Shown here in pieces: positions 12,457 through 21,090 of a stretch of 42,333 nucleotides of DNA (its first letter is position 1; every line of letters begins with the position of its first letter). The notes below the pieces were generated by a model. The model was not told the origin of the DNA and did not search any database. It saw nothing but the letters and a program-made list of their open reading frames with translations. This stretch comes from an uncultured Candidatus Actinomarina sp. (GTDB lineage Bacteria; Actinomycetota; Acidimicrobiia; Actinomarinales; Actinomarinaceae), in the NCBI GenBank assembly GCA_902555055.1, contig CACDQN010000008.1, positions 1-42,333 on the forward strand, read 5' to 3'. The translations under genes and the position numbers were made by a program.

Positions 12457-14088
12457 ATGACAAGTGTTAAAGGCTTAGGAGCTTCAATAGGAATAGCTAT
12501 AGGAATTTCATATATATATGAAAATGAAATCAATTTTGAACGCCCCACAAGTATTTCATTTGATTTAGCTAAATCTAATTTAATTAAAAGGTTTAAGACA
12601 CAAATCGAATCTTTTAAATCTAAAGATAGGACTGATGAGGCCGAAGTACTTGATGCGTATATCTTGATTCTAGAAGATCCTGAAATCACAAATCAGTTTG
12701 AAGAAATCTCTGATATTTCAAGTGAAAAAGTATTTGAAGTTTTTTCAAATACAGCATCAATCTTTGAATCTATGGAGGATGATTACTTTAAGCAGAGATC
12801 AGAAGACATAATTTCCGTTGGAAAGCATCTAATTTTTGCAATGCAGGATAAAGACACATCTACAACATTTGAAGAAAATACTATTCTAATAGCTAATGAT
12901 TTGACCCCTGCAGACACTTCATCTATGGACTTAAATAAAGTCTCTGGGATTATTTTAAAAGAAGGTGGTTTCACTTCCCATGCTGTAATTGTTGCCAAAA
13001 ATTTAGGAATCCCTTGTGTCATTGGACTTAAAGAGTCTGTAAATGATGTCTTATCAGGAACTAAAGTTGCAATAGATGGTGATAGTGGAGAAGTTATCCT
13101 CTCTCCATCGAAGGAAATTATTTTAGATCTTAAAAGAAAATCAGAAAATATTGATTTAGTAATTAGTAACTTTACTAAAGATAAATATGAGAAATTAGGA
13201 GTTAATTTCAGAATCAATGTTGGCTCCTCAGAAGAAATAGACAATTTTGAACATTTATTCTTAGATTCGATAGGTTTATTTAGATCAGAATTTATTTATT
13301 TAGACAGGCAAAGCCCACCAACACTTGAAGATCAAAAAAAAGTATTATCTGAACTTTCAGAAAAATTTAAAGGCACAATTGTATTCAGAACTCTTGATAT
13401 TGGTGGAGATAAACAGGTTAAGCATTTAAATTTACCAGTTGAAGAAAACCCCTTTTTGGGAGTTAGGGGGGTAAGGTTGTCACTCGAGAATAAAGATATT
13501 TTCTATTCACAAGTTAGATCAATTTTGGAATCAGAGTGTATTGATAGACTTAAAGTGATGTTTCCTATGGTATCTACAATTGAAGATTTTTTGGATGCTA
13601 AAAATTATGTAAATGAAATTGCTGAAGAGTTAGATTTAAAAACACCACCATTGGGAATTATGGTTGAAACACCATCATCAGCACTAATGTCAGATCAGTT
13701 TGCTGAAGTTGTAGATTTTATTTCAATTGGTACAAATGATTTAACACAATACATAATGGCTGCTGATAGGGGGAATAGTAATCTTAGCAAATATCAAAAC
13801 CCGCTCCATCCAGCTGTACTAAGAGCCATCTCAGGCGTAATAAATAATTGTAAAAAAAATAAAATTGAAGTTTCTGTCTGTGGTGAAATGGCATCAGATC
13901 CTATGTCAGCTTTGGCATTATACATTTTAGGGTTAAGAACATTTAGTATGTCTCCATCTGCTGCGCCTTTTGTTTTTGAAATTCTTGATAACAATCATCA
14001 AAGTATTCCTGAACAATTTGAGGATAAAATGTTATCGGCACTTAATGCTGAAGAAGTAACACTTCTAATAGAGGAAAATATACTTTGA
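12457..14088 (+). CDS. ptsI: PTS Enzyme I (phosphoenolpyruvate-protein phosphotransferase)
   Basis: GGFTSHAVIVAKNLGIPCVIG (active-site His), FRTLDIGGDK, ISIGTNDLTQYIMAADRGN, VCGEMASDP. Confidence 0.95.
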   Translation: MTSVKGLGASIGIAIGISYIYENEINFERPTSISFDLAKSNLIKRFKTQIESFKSKDRTDEAEVLDAYILILEDPEITNQFEEISDISSEKVFEVFSNTASIFESMEDDYFKQRSEDIISVGKHLIFAMQDKDTSTTFEENTILIANDLTPADTSSMDLNKVSGIILKEGGFTSHAVIVAKNLGIPCVIGLKESVNDVLSGTKVAIDGDSGEVILSPSKEIILDLKRKSENIDLVISNFTKDKYEKLGVNFRINVGSSEEIDNFEHLFLDSIGLFRSEFIYLDRQSPPTLEDQKKVLSELSEKFKGTIVFRTLDIGGDKQVKHLNLPVEENPFLGVRGVRLSLENKDIFYSQVRSILESECIDRLKVMFPMVSTIEDFLDAKNYVNEIAEELDLKTPPLGIMVETPSSALMSDQFAEVVDFISIGTNDLTQYIMAADRGNSNLSKYQNPLHPAVLRAISGVINNCKKNKIEVSVCGEMASDPMSALALYILGLRTFSMSPSAAPFVFEILDNNHQSIPEQFEDKMLSALNAEEVTLLIEENIL

Positions 14089-14765
14089 AAGTTCATGCAA
14101 TTTTATTAGCTGGTGGATCTAGTGATAGATTTAACAATGAAGAAAATAAAGTTTACTTTCCTATTGGGGGCAAGCCAGCTCTCTCTTGGGCTTTAGAAAC
14201 TCTAGATAATTCTGAGAAAGTAGATTCAATATTACTAGTTGTTCGCGATGAAGATTGGGACAAAACGAACAATGTTATTGAACTAACAAACCCTAAAAAG
14301 CTTATAGGTGTTGCAGTTGGAGGAAATACTAGACATCAAAGTGAATATGAAGGTTTAGTCAACTTAAAAGGAAGGGAAGATGTCGACGAAGAAGACTTAA
14401 TATTAATACATGATGGAGCAAGACCTCTTCTCCCGATATATTTACTAGATGAACTAATCGATGTAGCAACTAAATATGGAGCATCTGCACCAGGTTTTAA
14501 TTCAGAAAATCTTATGAAAAAAGATAATTCGAACAATGATACAAAACAAGAAACTATTGTAGAAATACAAACACCCCAAATATTTCCAGCTTCAGAATTA
14601 TGGAAGTCTTATGAACTCGCAAAACTTGATAATTGGCAAGCTGTGGACACCACGGAGTGCGTCTCTAAATATTCAGAACTCGAAGCAGTTGTAATACCAG
14701 GAGATCCAAGAAATATGAAAGTAACTTTTATCGAGGATATATTCACATTAGAAACGATGATTTAA
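14085..14765 (+). CDS. ispD: 2-C-methyl-D-erythritol 4-phosphate cytidylyltransferase
   Basis: AILLAGGSSDRF, LIHDGARPLLP, IQTPQIFP; TTG start overlaps the ptsI stop. Confidence 0.88.
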   Translation: MKVHAILLAGGSSDRFNNEENKVYFPIGGKPALSWALETLDNSEKVDSILLVVRDEDWDKTNNVIELTNPKKLIGVAVGGNTRHQSEYEGLVNLKGREDVDEEDLILIHDGARPLLPIYLLDELIDVATKYGASAPGFNSENLMKKDNSNNDTKQETIVEIQTPQIFPASELWKSYELAKLDNWQAVDTTECVSKYSELEAVVIPGDPRNMKVTFIEDIFTLETMI

Positions 14766-14870
14766 TTTTCTACTATAAATTTTAACTGTACTATTTTCCG
14801 TGTAATATAAAACTTTTCACCTAAATCTAATACAAGCTATCTTTGAAGTCAGTAAAATTAAAGTAATCAT

Positions 14871-15299
14871 TTGAGTTGGGAGATAATGATACTAGATTCA
14901 CCTTATGCCATTGGCATAATTTTTGTAACTCTTGCATTGATGTGGGTATTACAAATGTATCTTGCAAAAAAACAAGCTACGAGCTTTCTTAATGCAGTTA
15001 ACAGCATTAAAGGTTCTGGACTTGAAGTTGCTATTGGGATCAACCAACCAAAATGGGGAAGAAAAAAAATCTATATAGCAATTTCAGCTAATGCAGAATC
15101 AATCATTGTTGATGGCCTAACCCTAGAAGGTGTTACTACTTTTGCAAAAAGTAAAAAACTTACATTATTCAACGGTAAGAGTTTGCATGAAATTGTTACT
15201 TCAGATAATAACGAACCTATCTGGGAAGCTGCCTCAATGGCAGCTGATACTTTGATCAAAAGAATTCAAAGTAAAGAAGATAGTAGTTCAATAAGTTAG
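14871..15299 (+). CDS. Glucitol-operon activator GutM/SrlM family membrane protein
   Basis: N-terminal TM helix followed by IYIAISANAESIIVDGLTLEGVTTFAKSKKLTLFNGKSLHEI, resembling GutM; first gene before glucitol-type PTS components. Confidence 0.72.
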   Translation: MSWEIMILDSPYAIGIIFVTLALMWVLQMYLAKKQATSFLNAVNSIKGSGLEVAIGINQPKWGRKKIYIAISANAESIIVDGLTLEGVTTFAKSKKLTLFNGKSLHEIVTSDNNEPIWEAASMAADTLIKRIQSKEDSSSIS

Positions 15300-15316
15300 C
15301 AAAAGAAGGGGGAGAA

Positions 15317-15859
15317 ATGGATGCTTTGGTAAATGGCGCAGAAGCCTTTATACAAGTATTTAGAACCGCTGCTGACGTATTTGTAGGATTCACAACTGGA
15401 ATTATTCCAATTGTGGTAGTGTTCTTGACTGCAGTAAATGCTTTGGTCAAGTTTATTGGTGAGGAAAGAGTAGAGGGGTTTGCAAAATGGGCTTCTCAAG
15501 AAGGGGCGATATACATGCCTGTTCGATATACTCTCCTACCGTTTGTTGCTGTGTTTATGTTAACTAACCCAGTTTGTTATACATTCGGTACATTTTTGCC
15601 AGAAAAGCACAAACCGGCATTTTATGATTCAGCAGTCAGCTTTGTACATCCAATTACGGGAATATTTCCACACGCAAATGGTGGAGAGTTATTCGTATGG
15701 CTAGGCATTGCTGCAGGTGTCGAGATTGTTGCACCTGACATGGTTACTGCTTTAGCAGTTCGTTACCTACTTGCTGGTCTTGTAGTTATTTTGATTAGAG
15801 GTATTGTCACTGACATTATTTATAACATTATGGCAGCAAGAAAGGCGGGTGTCGAATAA
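15317..15859 (+). CDS. PTS glucitol/sorbitol-type EIIC (SrlA/GutA family)
   Basis: 180 aa, polytopic: TTGIIPIVVVFLTAVNALVKFIGEERVEGFAKWA, YTLLPFVAVFMLTNPVCYTFG, FLPEKHKPAFYDSAVSFVHPITGIFPHANGGELFVWLG. Confidence 0.92.
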   Translation: MDALVNGAEAFIQVFRTAADVFVGFTTGIIPIVVVFLTAVNALVKFIGEERVEGFAKWASQEGAIYMPVRYTLLPFVAVFMLTNPVCYTFGTFLPEKHKPAFYDSAVSFVHPITGIFPHANGGELFVWLGIAAGVEIVAPDMVTALAVRYLLAGLVVILIRGIVTDIIYNIMAARKAGVE

Positions 15860-16383
15860 TGCAAGCATTAATAGAAAGAATAGGTAGATCAGTTGGTGGC
15901 GTAGTTGGAACACTGTTCCAAGCAGGTCGTGATGCAGTTGATCTATGTCTTAAAACAATTATTCCTTTCATGGCATTCGTAACATTCGTCATTGGTTTGA
16001 TTTTAGAAACCGGTGTCGGTGATGCAATTGCAAATGGAATTAAAGGCTTTTCTAGCAGTTTGGGTGGATTGATGATAGTTTGTGTCATCTGTGCAATTCC
16101 AGTCCTGTCACCATTATTGGGACCAGGTGCTGTTATTGCCCAAATTGTTGGTGTTCTAATTGGTACAGAAATTGGTCGTGGAAACATTGATGTTTCAATG
16201 GCGCTTCCAGCATTGTTTGCAATTAACCCACAGGTTGGTTGTGACTTTGTTCCTGTAGGATTAGCACTTGGTGAAGCTGAACCTGAGACAGTTACGATTG
16301 GAGTTCCGGCAGTTCTGACAAGCAGAATGATTACTGGACCAATCTCAGTAGTTGTTGGTTATTTATTTGCATTAGGGTTGTAA
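15859..16383 (+). CDS. PTS glucitol/sorbitol-type EIIBC, membrane (C-terminal SrlE) part encoded separately
   Basis: TIIPFMAFVTFVIGLILETGVGDAIANGIKGF, CAIPVLSPLLGPGAVIAQIVGVLIGTEIGRG, INPQVGCDFVPVGLALGEAEPETVTIGVPAVLTSRMITGP. Confidence 0.9.
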   Translation: MQALIERIGRSVGGVVGTLFQAGRDAVDLCLKTIIPFMAFVTFVIGLILETGVGDAIANGIKGFSSSLGGLMIVCVICAIPVLSPLLGPGAVIAQIVGVLIGTEIGRGNIDVSMALPALFAINPQVGCDFVPVGLALGEAEPETVTIGVPAVLTSRMITGPISVVVGYLFALGL

Positions 16384-16410
16384 AAATTTAATTTAACAAT
16401 TGTTAAGTGT

Positions 16411-16440
16411 GTAGCGCTCTGTGTAAAATCAGAGCGTTAC
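16411..16440 (+). promoter_or_regulatory. Intercistronic stem-loop between the two glucitol EIIBC gene parts
   Basis: gtagcgctctg / tgtaaaat / cagagcgttac: 11-bp stem with one G-T wobble and 8-nt loop. Directly downstream of the palindrome TTAACAATTGTTAA (16393-16406). Confidence 0.8.
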
Positions 16441-16458
16441 AAATTTTAAGGAGAATAA

Positions 16459-16836
16459 ATGGCAGAATATAAAAAAGTTAAAGTGGAAGCTGGTAAAAGT
16501 GGTTGGGGCGGTCCATTAGAAATTCAACCAACAGATGAAAAAAAATATATTGTTTGTATTACAGGTGGGGGCATACACCCAGTAGCACAAAAAATTGCTG
16601 ATTTAACAGGTGCTGAAGCATTTGATGGTTTTAAATCATCACCAGAAGGAAGTTTTAAAGCAATGGCATGTGCAGTTATTGATTGCGGAGGAACGGCACG
16701 AATCGGAGTTTATCCAATGAAAGGTGTTCCTACAATTGATATACACGACACAACACCTGCAGGGCCTCTCGCACAGTTTATTAAAGAAGAAAACTTTGTT
16801 TCAGGCGTATCTGAGGATCAAGTAACAGAAGCTTAA
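16459..16836 (+). CDS. PTS glucitol/sorbitol-type EIIB (N-terminal SrlE part)
   Basis: KKVKVEAGKSGWGGPLEIQP, YIVCITGGGIHPVAQKIADLTGAEAFDGFKSS, AVIDCGGTARIGVYPMKGVPTIDIHDTTPAGPLAQFI. Confidence 0.92.
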   Translation: MAEYKKVKVEAGKSGWGGPLEIQPTDEKKYIVCITGGGIHPVAQKIADLTGAEAFDGFKSSPEGSFKAMACAVIDCGGTARIGVYPMKGVPTIDIHDTTPAGPLAQFIKEENFVSGVSEDQVTEA

Positions 16837-17195
16837 TGCTTATTTATTCTTCTGAAATAGTCCGAATAGGCGATCAAGCACATTTATTTTTGGACGAAGG
16901 AATAGTTGTCTTTTTTGGTGATAACGCTCCAGAAGAGCTTCAAGATTTTGCTGTAATTCATAAATTAATGGAAATTTCTGAAGAAATTGTTGTTGGTTCA
17001 AAAATTTGTTTATCAAACGCAAATTTAGAAGTAACAGCTGTTGGACCAGTCGCTAATGAAAATTTTAAAAACCTTGGCCATTTGGTTTTAAAACTTGATA
17101 GTTCAACAGAAGCAGCGTTACCAGGGGATGTAAGTTGTAAGTATGATAAAAAACCGGTTATTGAAATTGGAGATAAGTTAGAGATTACTCAATGA
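16836..17195 (+). CDS. PTS glucitol/sorbitol-type EIIA (SrlB/GutB family)
   Basis: ILFGDNAP-like motif (VVFFGDNAPEELQDFAVIHK), LGHLVLKLD; position after EIIB. Confidence 0.85.
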   Translation: MLIYSSEIVRIGDQAHLFLDEGIVVFFGDNAPEELQDFAVIHKLMEISEEIVVGSKICLSNANLEVTAVGPVANENFKNLGHLVLKLDSSTEAALPGDVSCKYDKKPVIEIGDKLEITQ

Positions 17196-18445
17196 ACTAT
17201 ACAGAAGAGTTGATTAAAAGAGAAAAAGAACTTGGAAGACCAGTAAGAGTAGGTCTTGCGGGTGCTGGACAGATGGGTTCAGGCTTAGCAGCTCAAATTG
17301 GAAGAATACCTGGAATGAGCCTTGTCGCCTGTGCGGATATTGATATAAAAAGAGCAGAAAATGCACTCTCGTTAGCTGGAGTCGAAATAATTAAAAGCAA
17401 CAATGAAGCAGCAGACTCTATTAGTAATGGTCATGGAGGGGTTGTAGATAACGCATCAGCACTTTCAGAGCTTCCAGTAGACATAGTTTTTGAAGCAACA
17501 GGAGTCCCCTGGGTTGGTGCAGAAGTTGCAAATGCCTGTATTGATGCAAAAAAACATATTCTTATGTTGAATGTTGAAACAGATGTCACTATTGGTATGT
17601 ATCTTGCAAATAAAGCACGTGAAAATGGAGTAGTTTATAGTGTTGCAAATGGAGACGAACCTGTTGCATGTAAAGAACTTTATGATTTTTCTATAGACCT
17701 TGGCTTTGAAGTTGTTTGTGTGGGTAAAGGAAAAAATAACCCGCTTGATCAAACAGCTAATCCTGATACATGTTTGGAAAAAGCAACAAAGAAGAAAATG
17801 AATCCAAAAATGTTAGCAAGTTTTGAAGATGGTTCAAAGACAATGATAGAGATGGCAGCTCTTGCTAACGCCATCAACCTACCACCAGATAGAGCTGGAA
17901 TGAATGGGCCTGTTAGTGAAGTTAGCGATTTAAATAAAATACTTATACCTCAAGAAGATGGCGGTGTTCTTAGTAGTTCAGGACGTGTAGATTATGCTTT
18001 TGGGCCAGCTCCTGGAGTATTTTCTATTGTAAAATCTGAAAACATTACAGTTATTGAAGAAATGGAGTACCTCTCTATGGGAGAAGGCCCCTACTACACT
18101 TTTTACAGACCCTATCATTTAGCGTCTATAGAGGCCCCAAGAAGTATTGGTATGGCAATCATAAATGAAGAAGCAGGTCTACAACCTACGACATGGATTG
18201 CTGAAGTAGTAGGACATGCAAAAAAAGATTTAAGTAAAGGGGAGATGGTTGATGGGATTGGTGGTTTTAATTCTTACGGAGTAACATATCCAGTTCAGGA
18301 AGCTAAGAATCTAGTTCCACTCGGTCTTCTTGAGGGTGCAGAAATAATTAGTGATATAAAGCAAGGGGAGCCAATTACCTTTGATGATGTCAATCTTCCA
18401 GAAAATCTAATCAATAATTTACGAAAACTACAAGACAATAGTTAA
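17192..18445 (+). CDS. COG4091-like NAD(P)-dependent oxidoreductase with SAF domain (homoserine dehydrogenase-like)
   Basis: Rossmann GLAGAGQMGSGLAAQI; MLNVETDVTIGMYLANKARENGVVYSVANGDEPVACKELYDF; C-terminal SAF-like segment. Confidence 0.8.
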   Translation: MNYTEELIKREKELGRPVRVGLAGAGQMGSGLAAQIGRIPGMSLVACADIDIKRAENALSLAGVEIIKSNNEAADSISNGHGGVVDNASALSELPVDIVFEATGVPWVGAEVANACIDAKKHILMLNVETDVTIGMYLANKARENGVVYSVANGDEPVACKELYDFSIDLGFEVVCVGKGKNNPLDQTANPDTCLEKATKKKMNPKMLASFEDGSKTMIEMAALANAINLPPDRAGMNGPVSEVSDLNKILIPQEDGGVLSSSGRVDYAFGPAPGVFSIVKSENITVIEEMEYLSMGEGPYYTFYRPYHLASIEAPRSIGMAIINEEAGLQPTTWIAEVVGHAKKDLSKGEMVDGIGGFNSYGVTYPVQEAKNLVPLGLLEGAEIISDIKQGEPITFDDVNLPENLINNLRKLQDNS

Positions 18446-18455
18446 ATAGAAATTA

Positions 18456-19415
18456 ATGGCACTAATTAAAGATACGCAATTAGAACTTCATCGAATGATG
18501 ATGCTAATAAGATTGTTTGAAGAAGCACTAGAAGAAATGTTTTCCCGTGGCCTTCTACATGGAACAATGCATCTCTCAATAGGACAAGAAGCAACAGCAG
18601 CCGGTGCATGTCTTGCTTTAGATAAAAAAGATTTAATAACTTCAACCCACAGAGGGCATGGTCACTGTCTTGGTAAGGGAGCAGAACCATATAAAATGTT
18701 TGCTGAGCTTTTAGGACGTGAAGATGGATATTGCAGGGGGCGTGGAGGCTCAATGCACATTGCTGACTTATCAAATGGAAATCTTGGTGCTAATGGTATT
18801 GTTGCAGGAAGTTTAACCATATCTGTTGGAGCTGCTCTTTCATTTCAGCTACAAAAGAAAGAAAATATTGTTCTATGTTTCTTTGGTGACGGGGCTGTAA
18901 ATGAGGGATCGTTCCATGAAGCACTTAACCTAGCTTCGTTATGGAATCTCCCTGTACTATTTTTATGTGAAAACAATCAATATGGAATGTCTATGGCTTC
19001 TGAAAAAGCTGTTGCTGGTGAGTCAATTGCATCAAGAGGAAAATCATACGGCATTGAAAGTATTCAGATTGATGGTAATGATGTCGAGGCAGTCTATGAA
19101 AGTGTGTCTACTTGTAAAGATGAAATATTAAGTAATAAGAGACCAAAATTTATTGAAGCTGTTACATATCGATATAGAGGGCATTCAAAGTCAGATCGAA
19201 ACTTATATAGGACGAGTGAGGAAATAAATTTTTGGAAAGATGAAAAAGACCCGATTAAAAGATATATAGGAAAACTACTTGAACAGGGTATTACAGAAGT
19301 AGATTTAAAAAAAATTGATGAAGAAGTAAAGCAAACAATAAGAACCTCAGTAAAGAAAGCTTTAGACTCCTCACTAAGCCCAATCACTAATCTCGAGGAG
19401 GACTCTTATGCCTGA
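18456..19415 (+). CDS. TPP-dependent 2-oxo acid/acetoin dehydrogenase E1 alpha subunit
   Basis: GRGGSMHIADLSNGNLGANGIVAGSLTISVGAALS; TPP motif FFGDGAVNEGSFHEALNLASLWNLPVLFLCENN. Confidence 0.93.
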   Translation: MALIKDTQLELHRMMMLIRLFEEALEEMFSRGLLHGTMHLSIGQEATAAGACLALDKKDLITSTHRGHGHCLGKGAEPYKMFAELLGREDGYCRGRGGSMHIADLSNGNLGANGIVAGSLTISVGAALSFQLQKKENIVLCFFGDGAVNEGSFHEALNLASLWNLPVLFLCENNQYGMSMASEKAVAGESIASRGKSYGIESIQIDGNDVEAVYESVSTCKDEILSNKRPKFIEAVTYRYRGHSKSDRNLYRTSEEINFWKDEKDPIKRYIGKLLEQGITEVDLKKIDEEVKQTIRTSVKKALDSSLSPITNLEEDSYA

Positions 19416-20391
19416 GCTTACTGTTGGGCAAGCAATCAATAATGCGCTCTCACGAATTCTTAAAGAGTATCCCAACTCGTTTATAGCCGGTGAAGATATA
19501 GGTATTTATGGTGGCGCATTTGGAGTAACTGAAGGATTATTAAAAACTTTTGGAGAGGAGAGAATAAAAGATACCCCTATTGCTGAAGATGCAATAGCTG
19601 GTCTAGCAGTTGGTGCCGCTATGACAGACTCTAAACCCATTGTTGAGATGCAATTTAGTGATTTTATTGTTAATGCTATGGATCCAATTGTAAATCAAGC
19701 AGCAAAACTTCATTTTATGTATGGGGGTGCAGTTAATGTACCTATTGTTGTTCGAGGTGCTAGTGGTGCTGGAACAGGGGCTGCTGCACAACATAGCCAG
19801 TCTCTAGAGTCTTGGTTTTGTCATGTTCCAGGTTTGAAAGTTGTCACACCTTCAAATCCACAAAATGCTTATGATTTACTTCTTCACTCTTTTGTTGACC
19901 CAAACCCCGTAATTTTCATGGAACATAAATTAATTTATAAAATTAAAGACAATGTAGTTTTAAATGATATACCTAGTAGTTCAGAACTACTGGGTAAAGC
20001 AAATATCGAATCCAAAGGAAACGACATCACTATAGTTTCTTATTCAAATATGGTGAATGTTGTAAAAGATGCAATTTCCTCTGATGAGTTATCTGGAATT
20101 TCTATAGAGCTCATCGATCTTCAAACTCTTTCGCCTATGGATATGGAGACTGTAATAACCTCAGTCTCAAAAACAAAGAAGTTACTTGTTTGTCAGGAAG
20201 CGCCAGCAAACAGCTCTGTTGGTAGCACAGTAATTTCTAATGTTGTACAGAGTAGTACATTCTCTAGTCTGTCAAGTGCTCCTAAGTTAATTTCAGGACT
20301 TCATTCACCGATGCCCTCAGCGAAACACTTAGAAACAACTGTTATCCCTCAAAAGGAAGACATTGTAAAAGTTATTAAAGATATGGTATAA
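19408..20391 (+). CDS. TPP-dependent 2-oxo acid/acetoin dehydrogenase E1 beta subunit
   Basis: LTVGQAINNALSRILKEYPNSFIAGEDIGIYGGAFGVTEGLLKTFGEERIKDTPIAEDAIAGLAVGAAM; AAQHSQSLESWFCHVPGLKVVTPSNPQNAYDLLL. Confidence 0.95.
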   Translation: MPELTVGQAINNALSRILKEYPNSFIAGEDIGIYGGAFGVTEGLLKTFGEERIKDTPIAEDAIAGLAVGAAMTDSKPIVEMQFSDFIVNAMDPIVNQAAKLHFMYGGAVNVPIVVRGASGAGTGAAAQHSQSLESWFCHVPGLKVVTPSNPQNAYDLLLHSFVDPNPVIFMEHKLIYKIKDNVVLNDIPSSSELLGKANIESKGNDITIVSYSNMVNVVKDAISSDELSGISIELIDLQTLSPMDMETVITSVSKTKKLLVCQEAPANSSVGSTVISNVVQSSTFSSLSSAPKLISGLHSPMPSAKHLETTVIPQKEDIVKVIKDMV

Positions 20392-20397
20392 ATAATT

Positions 20398-20670
20398 ATG
20401 GCAAAAGAAAACATACTATTACCAGCAATGTCTGATCAAATGACAGAAGCAGAGCTACTCTCTTGGAATGTTTCTGTGGGCGATAAAGTTAATAAAGGAG
20501 ATGTACTTTGTGAAATCTCAACTGACAAGGTGGATATGGATCTCGAATCCCCTTATGCTGGTGAAATAATAAACCTAATTGCAACAGAAGGAGACATGAT
20601 TAATGTCGGGGAACCTGTAGCAGAGATAGAAACAGAGGAAGATAGTTTATTAGGTTCTATTTTTGATTAA
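20398..20670 (+). CDS. Free-standing lipoyl (biotinyl/lipoyl attachment) domain protein
   Basis: 90 aa: LLPAMSDQMTEAELLSWNVSVGDKVNKGDVLCEISTDKVDMDLESPYAGEI (lipoyl-Lys DKVDM). No subunit-binding or acyltransferase domain. Confidence 0.93.
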   Translation: MAKENILLPAMSDQMTEAELLSWNVSVGDKVNKGDVLCEISTDKVDMDLESPYAGEIINLIATEGDMINVGEPVAEIETEEDSLLGSIFD

Positions 20671-20673
20671 TTA

Positions 20674-21090
20674 CTAACAAGTATTATCTTTCACTATAGT
20701 AACTGTGTCTTTTTCCTCTTCTCTTACAAATATTCCAGAAATAAACACACATTCATTATCAAATGCTACGTTTTCATTTACTGAGATAGAACATTCAATT
20801 TTATAATTTTCATACTCAGAACTATAAAAATTTAGACAGTCATTTATTTTTTTTTCACCATTATTTTTATTAATCTGCAAAAGAAAAATTTTTACTTCAT
20901 CATCACCTATTTCAATATTTTCAGGATCTATATAAAAAGTTTCTTCATAAAGCCCATCTAGGGTACTACTTGTTTCTGATGTTAAAAAACCTGAAGCACT
21001 ACTTGAGATTATTGCTAAAAACCCAATGCCAATAAGAAGATAAAATAAATTTTTCATATTTTTTGTTATTTTGTGCCTTAATTTTATCAA
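20674..21090 (-). CDS. Hypothetical membrane-anchored extracytoplasmic protein
   Basis: 138 aa with one N-terminal TM segment (NLFYLLIGIGFLAIISSSASGF); no recognised domain. Confidence 0.5.
   Translation of the reverse strand: MIKLRHKITKNMKNLFYLLIGIGFLAIISSSASGFLTSETSSTLDGLYEETFYIDPENIEIGDDEVKIFLLQINKNNGEKKINDCLNFYSSEYENYKIECSISVNENVAFDNECVFISGIFVREEEKDTVTIVKDNTC

Follow-up and report, generated by a model that had tools for sequence, protein, structure and literature searches.

How can an E1 component work when the gene that follows it encodes a lipoyl domain and nothing else of an E2? This question is raised by a locus on contig C8 of the very small genome of a Candidatus Actinomarina (1.01 Mb, 82% complete). 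The whole stretch of 42,333 nucleotides analysed here is called the window. The lipoyl gene is the last gene of an operon that also encodes a glucitol-type PTS, a DRL-type oxidoreductase and both E1 subunits. The features are as follows.

12457..14088, + strand: PTS enzyme I (PtsI); TIGR01417, 8.7e-123
14085..14765, + strand: IspD, MEP cytidylyltransferase homologue; TIGR00453, 2.1e-41, below the curated cut-off of that model
14871..15299, + strand: GutM-like protein; PF06923, 1.5e-16
15317..15859, + strand: glucitol-type PTS IIC (SrlA); PF03608, 2.2e-66
15859..16383, + strand: glucitol-type PTS, C-terminal membrane part of SrlE; PF07663, 8.8e-45
16459..16836, + strand: glucitol-type PTS IIB (N-terminal part of SrlE); PF03612, 3.5e-52
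16836..17195, + strand: glucitol-type PTS IIA; PF03829, 1.2e-31
17192..18445, + strand: DRL / DXR-II type NAD(P)-dependent oxidoreductase, 417 aa, with SAF domain; Pfam DRL_cat, 1.1e-61; Brucella DRL 3upl/3upy, 1e-98
18456..19415, + strand: E1alpha, 319 aa, TPP-dependent; Pfam E1_dh, 5.1e-81; 31% identical to the other (fused) E1 of the genome
19408..20391, + strand: E1beta, 327 aa; Pfam Transket_pyr, 3.3e-38, and Transketolase_C, 3.2e-25
20398..20670, + strand: free-standing lipoyl-domain protein, 90 aa (Pfam PF00364, AlphaFold2, orthologues); predicted lipoyl lysine K44 in STDKVDM; tail residues 82-90 DSLLGSIFD
20641..20667, + strand: conserved C-terminal motif DSLLGSIFD, homologous to the post-lipoyl DDLLGGLFD of full-length actinobacterial E2s; invariant in the genus save for I/L

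The lipoyl protein and its fixation in the genus

The lipoyl ORF begins with an ATG 6 nt past the E1beta stop codon. Pfam Biotin_lipoyl (PF00364) was matched over residues 6-77 (E = 3.1e-21). Among NCBIfam models, those of E2 lipoyl domains match best, led by that of the acetoin dehydrogenase E2, rather than the H-protein family. With 41 aligned sequences, AlphaFold2 predicted a confident beta-barrel (pLDDT 85.6), which Foldseek placed closest to PDH lipoyl domains, e.g. 3crk, the human PDH lipoyl domain L2. The DKVDM lipoyl site (ISTDKVDM) is invariant in 13 of 13 Actinomarina orthologues. The 90-aa protein has the fold and the DK-type site of a lipoyl carrier, and a biotin carrier is ruled out by the DKV site and by the best matches to lipoyl domains. 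No PSBD (PF02817) or acyltransferase domain was matched in the protein by the Pfam scan, and the contig carries no E2 core or E3. A reading of the sequence alone had described an ORF with only a lipoyl domain directly behind E1beta and with none of these parts nearby, and both points are confirmed. The DXR-II, glucitol PTS and ispD genes around it are an addition to that reading.

The same sequence-only reading had noted a short acidic tail. The tail is present. In the single-chain model it is unstructured, and the last ten residues have a pLDDT of about 51. It is not a spacer: the loops of the barrel differ among the 13 orthologues, but the last nine residues, DSLLGS(I/L)FD, are invariant save for a single I/L exchange.

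All 13 complete Actinomarina orthologues aligned are exactly 90 aa long. They are 70-93% identical to the window copy and lie in the same gene order. Pairwise dN/dS, where measurable, is about 0.03-0.2; silent sites are saturated in many of the pairs. Chance is excluded because the length, the identity, the gene order and the low measurable dN/dS all agree. A recent truncation or an assembly artefact is ruled out by the common length of all 13. Judged from these substitution rates, the 90-aa form is under purifying selection in the genus.

One chromosomal site holds two alternative cassettes, either PTS-DRL-E1-lipoyl (window 12457-20670) or DRL without the PTS, E1 and lipoyl genes (L057-L063). 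Group A comprises the 13 genomes with PTS, E1 and lipoyl genes, and group B comprises 15 genomes with a DRL that is 43-48% identical. Every group A genome with a spanning contig has the order ptsI, ispD, gutM, srlA, srlE, IIB, IIA, DRL, E1alpha, E1beta, lipoyl, and a partial contig (G021) shows mtl, lipoyl, E1beta and E1alpha in matching order. Among the genus genomes searched, SrlA occurs only in those carrying this cassette. In contrast, all seven group B loci examined lack PTS, E1 and lipoyl genes in the interval from ispD to mtlA, and no close E1alpha was found in the group B genomes. One group B locus was inspected gene by gene, and there DRL is followed by YjbQ and a short minus-strand gene. 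The ispD and ptsI genes are strongly diverged between the two cassettes. IspD is 72-97% identical within group A and 30-38% identical to group B, and it varies together with the DRL module.

The lipoyl gene is immediately followed by a 138-aa ORF on the minus strand (window 20674-21090). It has no Pfam match and is conserved in group A. It is probably a small membrane or exported protein.

Descent from a full-length E2

A DRL alignment was scanned against 84,980 species genomes, and the best 80 of 582 loci were taken. The frequencies given here thus apply to the nearest relatives only, and the genomes are incomplete. Among these best 80, there are 50 non-Actinomarina DRL loci of at least 15 kb. 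E1alpha-beta is present in 40/50, the glucitol PTS in 39/50, and both in 37/50. The E1-DRL linkage spans Actinobacteria, Chloroflexi, Bacillota, Alphaproteobacteria and Spirochaetes. In 19 loci outside the genus, the DRL operon has an IspD homologue nearby, in several different arrangements; a Microbacteriaceae example inspected in full is a fusion of IspDF length. Full E2 or E3 genes occur in DRL-E1 operons elsewhere, and some DRL operons carry FGGY kinases. On Ligilactobacillus plasmids (L010), DRL and a glucitol PTS are accompanied by a transketolase and a fructose-6-phosphate aldolase-like gene, with no E1. Judging from this pairing, relatives of DRL may act on other branched polyol phosphates. 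A Methylomirabilota contig (L108:4329-5360) carries DRL-E1alpha-E1beta, and the 5 kb that follow contain no lipoyl gene.

The 50 loci and four plasmid loci yielded 48 complete lipoyl ORFs from comparable operons outside the genus. All are full-length E2s, measuring 354-473 aa from lipoyl start to stop. Those scanned combine a lipoyl domain and a PSBD with a core of either the CAT or the alpha/beta-hydrolase type. In the actinobacterial members, a DDLLGGLFD-type motif stands right after the lipoyl domain, and the Actinomarina ORF ends directly after its corresponding tail motif. The motif was not found in the E2 on contig C2 of the same genome, nor in one unrelated Acidimicrobiia E2.

These data show descent from a full-length E2. 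By this comparison, the Actinomarina gene is a fixed, reduced E2 that lost linker, PSBD and core and kept the lipoyl domain and the motif. Since the motif was retained together with the lipoyl domain while the rest was lost, it is a probable docking peptide. Fusion of the ORF to an E2 core in related genomes had been proposed in advance as the sign of a truncation. Such fusions are the form found outside the genus and were not found inside it, where all 13 complete orthologues aligned are short. A truncation did occur in evolution, but it is old, fixed and selected.

Probable acyl transfer in trans and the proposed substrate

The sole E2 core found in the genome lies on contig C2, in an operon of full E2, Lpd, fused E1alpha-beta and a LipB-LipA fusion. 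The same E1-E2-Lpd set was found in 3/3 other Actinomarina regions examined for it, and most of the genus genomes searched have lipoyl ORFs of E2 size. Two fusions were observed on contig C2. The other 2-oxoacid dehydrogenase has its E1alpha and E1beta joined in one 668-aa chain (L044:5890-7893), and LipB and LipA form one 542-aa protein downstream of E2 (L044:9175-10800).

The sequence-only reading had left two options, an E2 encoded elsewhere or a diffusible carrier such as GcvH, and had proposed a search of the genome for E2 core, E3 and LipA-LipB. The single full E2, the Lpd and the LipB-LipA fusion on contig C2 favor the first option. Judging from gene content, the proteins encoded on C2 could lipoylate the arm, unload it on the CAT core and re-oxidise it, all in trans. 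Since the only E2 core found, the Lpd and the LipB-LipA fusion lie on another contig, the most probable mechanism is that the acyl group is transferred in trans. The second option, taken as an electron carrier like GcvH or LbpA that works without acyl transfer, is highly improbable. The free-standing size would fit it, and LbpA shows that lipoyl carriers can exist apart from the classical complexes (PMC6067878). However, the motif and gene position shared with E2s indicate descent from E2, a separate short GcvH-sized lipoyl ORF is present on contig C10, and the operon has no glycine-cleavage, sHdr or other Hdr-like genes.

The E1alpha and E1beta match PDH-type models. They could therefore form a plain pyruvate or 2-oxoacid dehydrogenase E1 that stands beside DRL by chance, with a lipoyl protein that only feeds acetyl to the other complex. 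This explanation is quite improbable, since the E1-DRL linkage recurs across the bacterial groups named above and the genome already has another complete E1-E2-E3 set.

Herein, we propose that the lipoyl-tail protein is a reduced E2 served in trans by the C2 core, within an operon leading from methylerythritol/MEP through DXP to acetyl-lipoyl. We give this proposal an even chance. The PTS would bring in the branched polyol 2-C-methyl-D-erythritol as MEP, and DXR-II (DRL) would oxidise MEP to DXP. E1 would then split DXP in the style of acetoin dehydrogenase to glyceraldehyde-3-phosphate and acetyl-lipoyl. This step combines the reversed DXS reaction with the acetoin-dehydrogenase principle, and the chemistry of both is established. 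On the lipoyl side, LipB-LipA would lipoylate K44, and the E1alpha-beta of the operon itself would load the acyl group onto the arm. Handing the acyl group to CoA would fall to the E2 core of the second 2-oxoacid dehydrogenase complex in the genome, and the shared Lpd would re-oxidise the arm. The DSLLGS(I/L)FD tail may stand in for the lost PSBD in binding either E1 or the host complex. MEP could also go straight to IspD for isoprenoids.

The DRL of the window is homologous over its full length to the Brucella DRL (PDB 3upl/3upy). It keeps the DXR-II residues K191, K193, T229, R320 and Y322. Two positions conserved in most DXR-II are changed, H250 to N (N238) and V351 to I (I336). The roles of these residues, and the binding of the DXP analogue fosmidomycin by those that are kept, have been described (PMC3847144). 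DXR-I was found in 0/35 Actinomarina genomes and in 23/24 other Acidimicrobiia, and IspG is present in 28/35 Actinomarina genomes. With IspG present and DXR-I absent, DRL would have to make or use MEP in this genus. The DXR-I absence thus points to a probable MEP/DXP activity of the window DRL.

The PTS class is annotated as sorbitol, and methylerythritol is the substrate that we infer for it. Uptake of mannitol and sorbitol has been inferred for Actinomarina-type organisms (PMC7771536). The same reduced E2 could serve another imported polyol, such as sorbitol, an apiitol-like compound or another branched alditol. E1 would then cleave the ketose phosphate made by DRL into an acyl-lipoyl (e.g. 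glycolyl) and an aldose phosphate. The glucitol type of the PTS, the DRL operons in which a transketolase and an aldolase-like gene replace E1, and those with FGGY kinases agree with this version. However, we consider it rather unlikely, since the kept residues bind a DXP analogue (PMC3847144), ispD is linked to the operon, and DRL is the only DXR in this IspG-bearing genus.

No canonical DXS (DXP_synthase_N) was found in the 35 Actinomarina genomes, group B included. The strongest match there is 2.5e-8, while a true DXS in other Acidimicrobiia scores 5.9e-83 or better. A canonical DXS match is also missing from 11/24 other Acidimicrobiia genomes. In a wider survey, 181 MEP species were missing only Dxs, and 172 of them are unexplained (Marshall et al., PMC10663253). 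The E1 could then act as the DXS, a carboligase, with the lipoyl protein serving a side PDH activity. The E1 adjoins DRL and ispD, the PDH E1 is able to make 1-deoxyxylulose, and aceE mutants make DXP (PMC3424233); the missing DXS in the genus and the unexplained species would fit as well. This assignment is nevertheless unlikely. It is weakened by the group B genomes, from which DXS and a close E1 are both missing, with no E1, PTS or lipoyl genes at the seven loci examined. In addition, the lipoyl unit is kept and full E2/E3 genes stand in the operon elsewhere, and a carboligase needs neither. The DXS gap in the genus is not solved by the lipoyl operon alone, because group B genomes lack DXS too.

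Other candidates for the missing DXS were also considered. In other DXS-less Acidimicrobiia, E1 orthologues were rejected as substitutes: the 45% matches in G047, G051 and G057 lack a DRL context, and G037 and G058 have neither DXS nor an E1 orthologue. A split transketolase in G010 and G019 was set aside as it sits among sugar-nucleotide genes. This transketolase-like pair (~210 + 155 aa; L147:2071-3173 and L148:2251-3335) has sugar aminotransferase and nucleotidyltransferase neighbours in the two Actinomarina genomes.

The proposal can be extended to the operons of other bacteria, tentatively and with more doubt than belief. They may encode an undescribed, widespread pathway for 2-C-methyl-D-erythritol. 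A PTS or kinase would form MEP, DXR-II running in reverse would form DXP, and a dedicated E1-E2 DXP dehydrogenase would yield acetyl-CoA and glyceraldehyde-3-phosphate. In the DXS-less Actinomarina, the import would also feed isoprenoids, and the E2 would be stripped to an arm and a docking peptide on the core of another complex. If true, this would give a reason why DXR-II exists in addition to DXR-I, or where there is no MEP pathway at all. Activity was found even for the DXR-II of Finegoldia magna, an organism with no other MEP genes, and for that of a Chloroflexus relying on the mevalonate pathway (PMC3847144). A catabolic role would explain activity in such bacteria. The overlap with DXR-I, the activity without the MEP pathway, and the acyloin-type dehydrogenase and polyol PTS as neighbours all fit catabolism or salvage of methylerythritol phosphate as the purpose of DXR-II. 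The proposal bears on isoprenoid precursor supply in an abundant marine genus without DXS. It makes the purpose of DXR-II testable, and also whether a complex can be split so that a detached lipoyl arm, carrying a short conserved peptide, works on a core encoded elsewhere.

Comparison with known systems

In the open-access literature searched, we found no direct report of methylerythritol catabolism or of a lipoyl-only E2, and no description of the docking-like tail or of the DRL-PTS-E1-E2 operon. The closest relatives are the full-length E2s of DRL-E1 operons, as in Nitriliruptoraceae (L072), Amycolatopsis (L078) and Terrarubrum (L007). They share the operon, the place after E1beta and a DKV/DKA lipoyl site, and the actinobacterial members share the tail in the form of the DDLLGGLFD-type motif. 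However, they are longer (354-473 aa), as their chain continues into linker, PSBD and a core of the CAT or alpha/beta-hydrolase kind, whereas the Actinomarina protein consists of lipoyl domain and motif (90 aa).

The Brucella DRL (DXR-II) is alike in its full-length homology and in the key substrate-site residues. The window DRL differs from DXR-II by H250N, V351I and an operon with E1 and PTS. For acetoin dehydrogenase (AcoABC-Lpd), the proposed chemistry is alike: an acyloin is split by a TPP enzyme, with lipoyl as the acceptor of the acyl group. Its substrate is an acyloin, whereas a ketose phosphate is proposed for Actinomarina. An AcoC-type E2 is present in some DRL operons, but the Actinomarina operon has no AcoC core.

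A 79-aa lipoyl-only ORF follows E1alpha-beta directly on Sphingobium plasmids (L160:5998-6237, L161:6001-6240), much as the 90-aa one does in Actinomarina. The Sphingobium proteins differ in having no DRL/PTS nearby, no DSLLGS(I/L)FD tail, and an E-K-V or A-K-A site. Archaeal single-domain lipoyl proteins are a recognised class (PMC3904984) and likewise consist of the lipoyl domain alone; of the archaeal proteins and the Actinomarina one, a link to an E1, DRL or PTS operon is established here for the latter. Because such proteins exist in Sphingobium and in archaea, a lipoyl-only split E2 is not unprecedented in kind.
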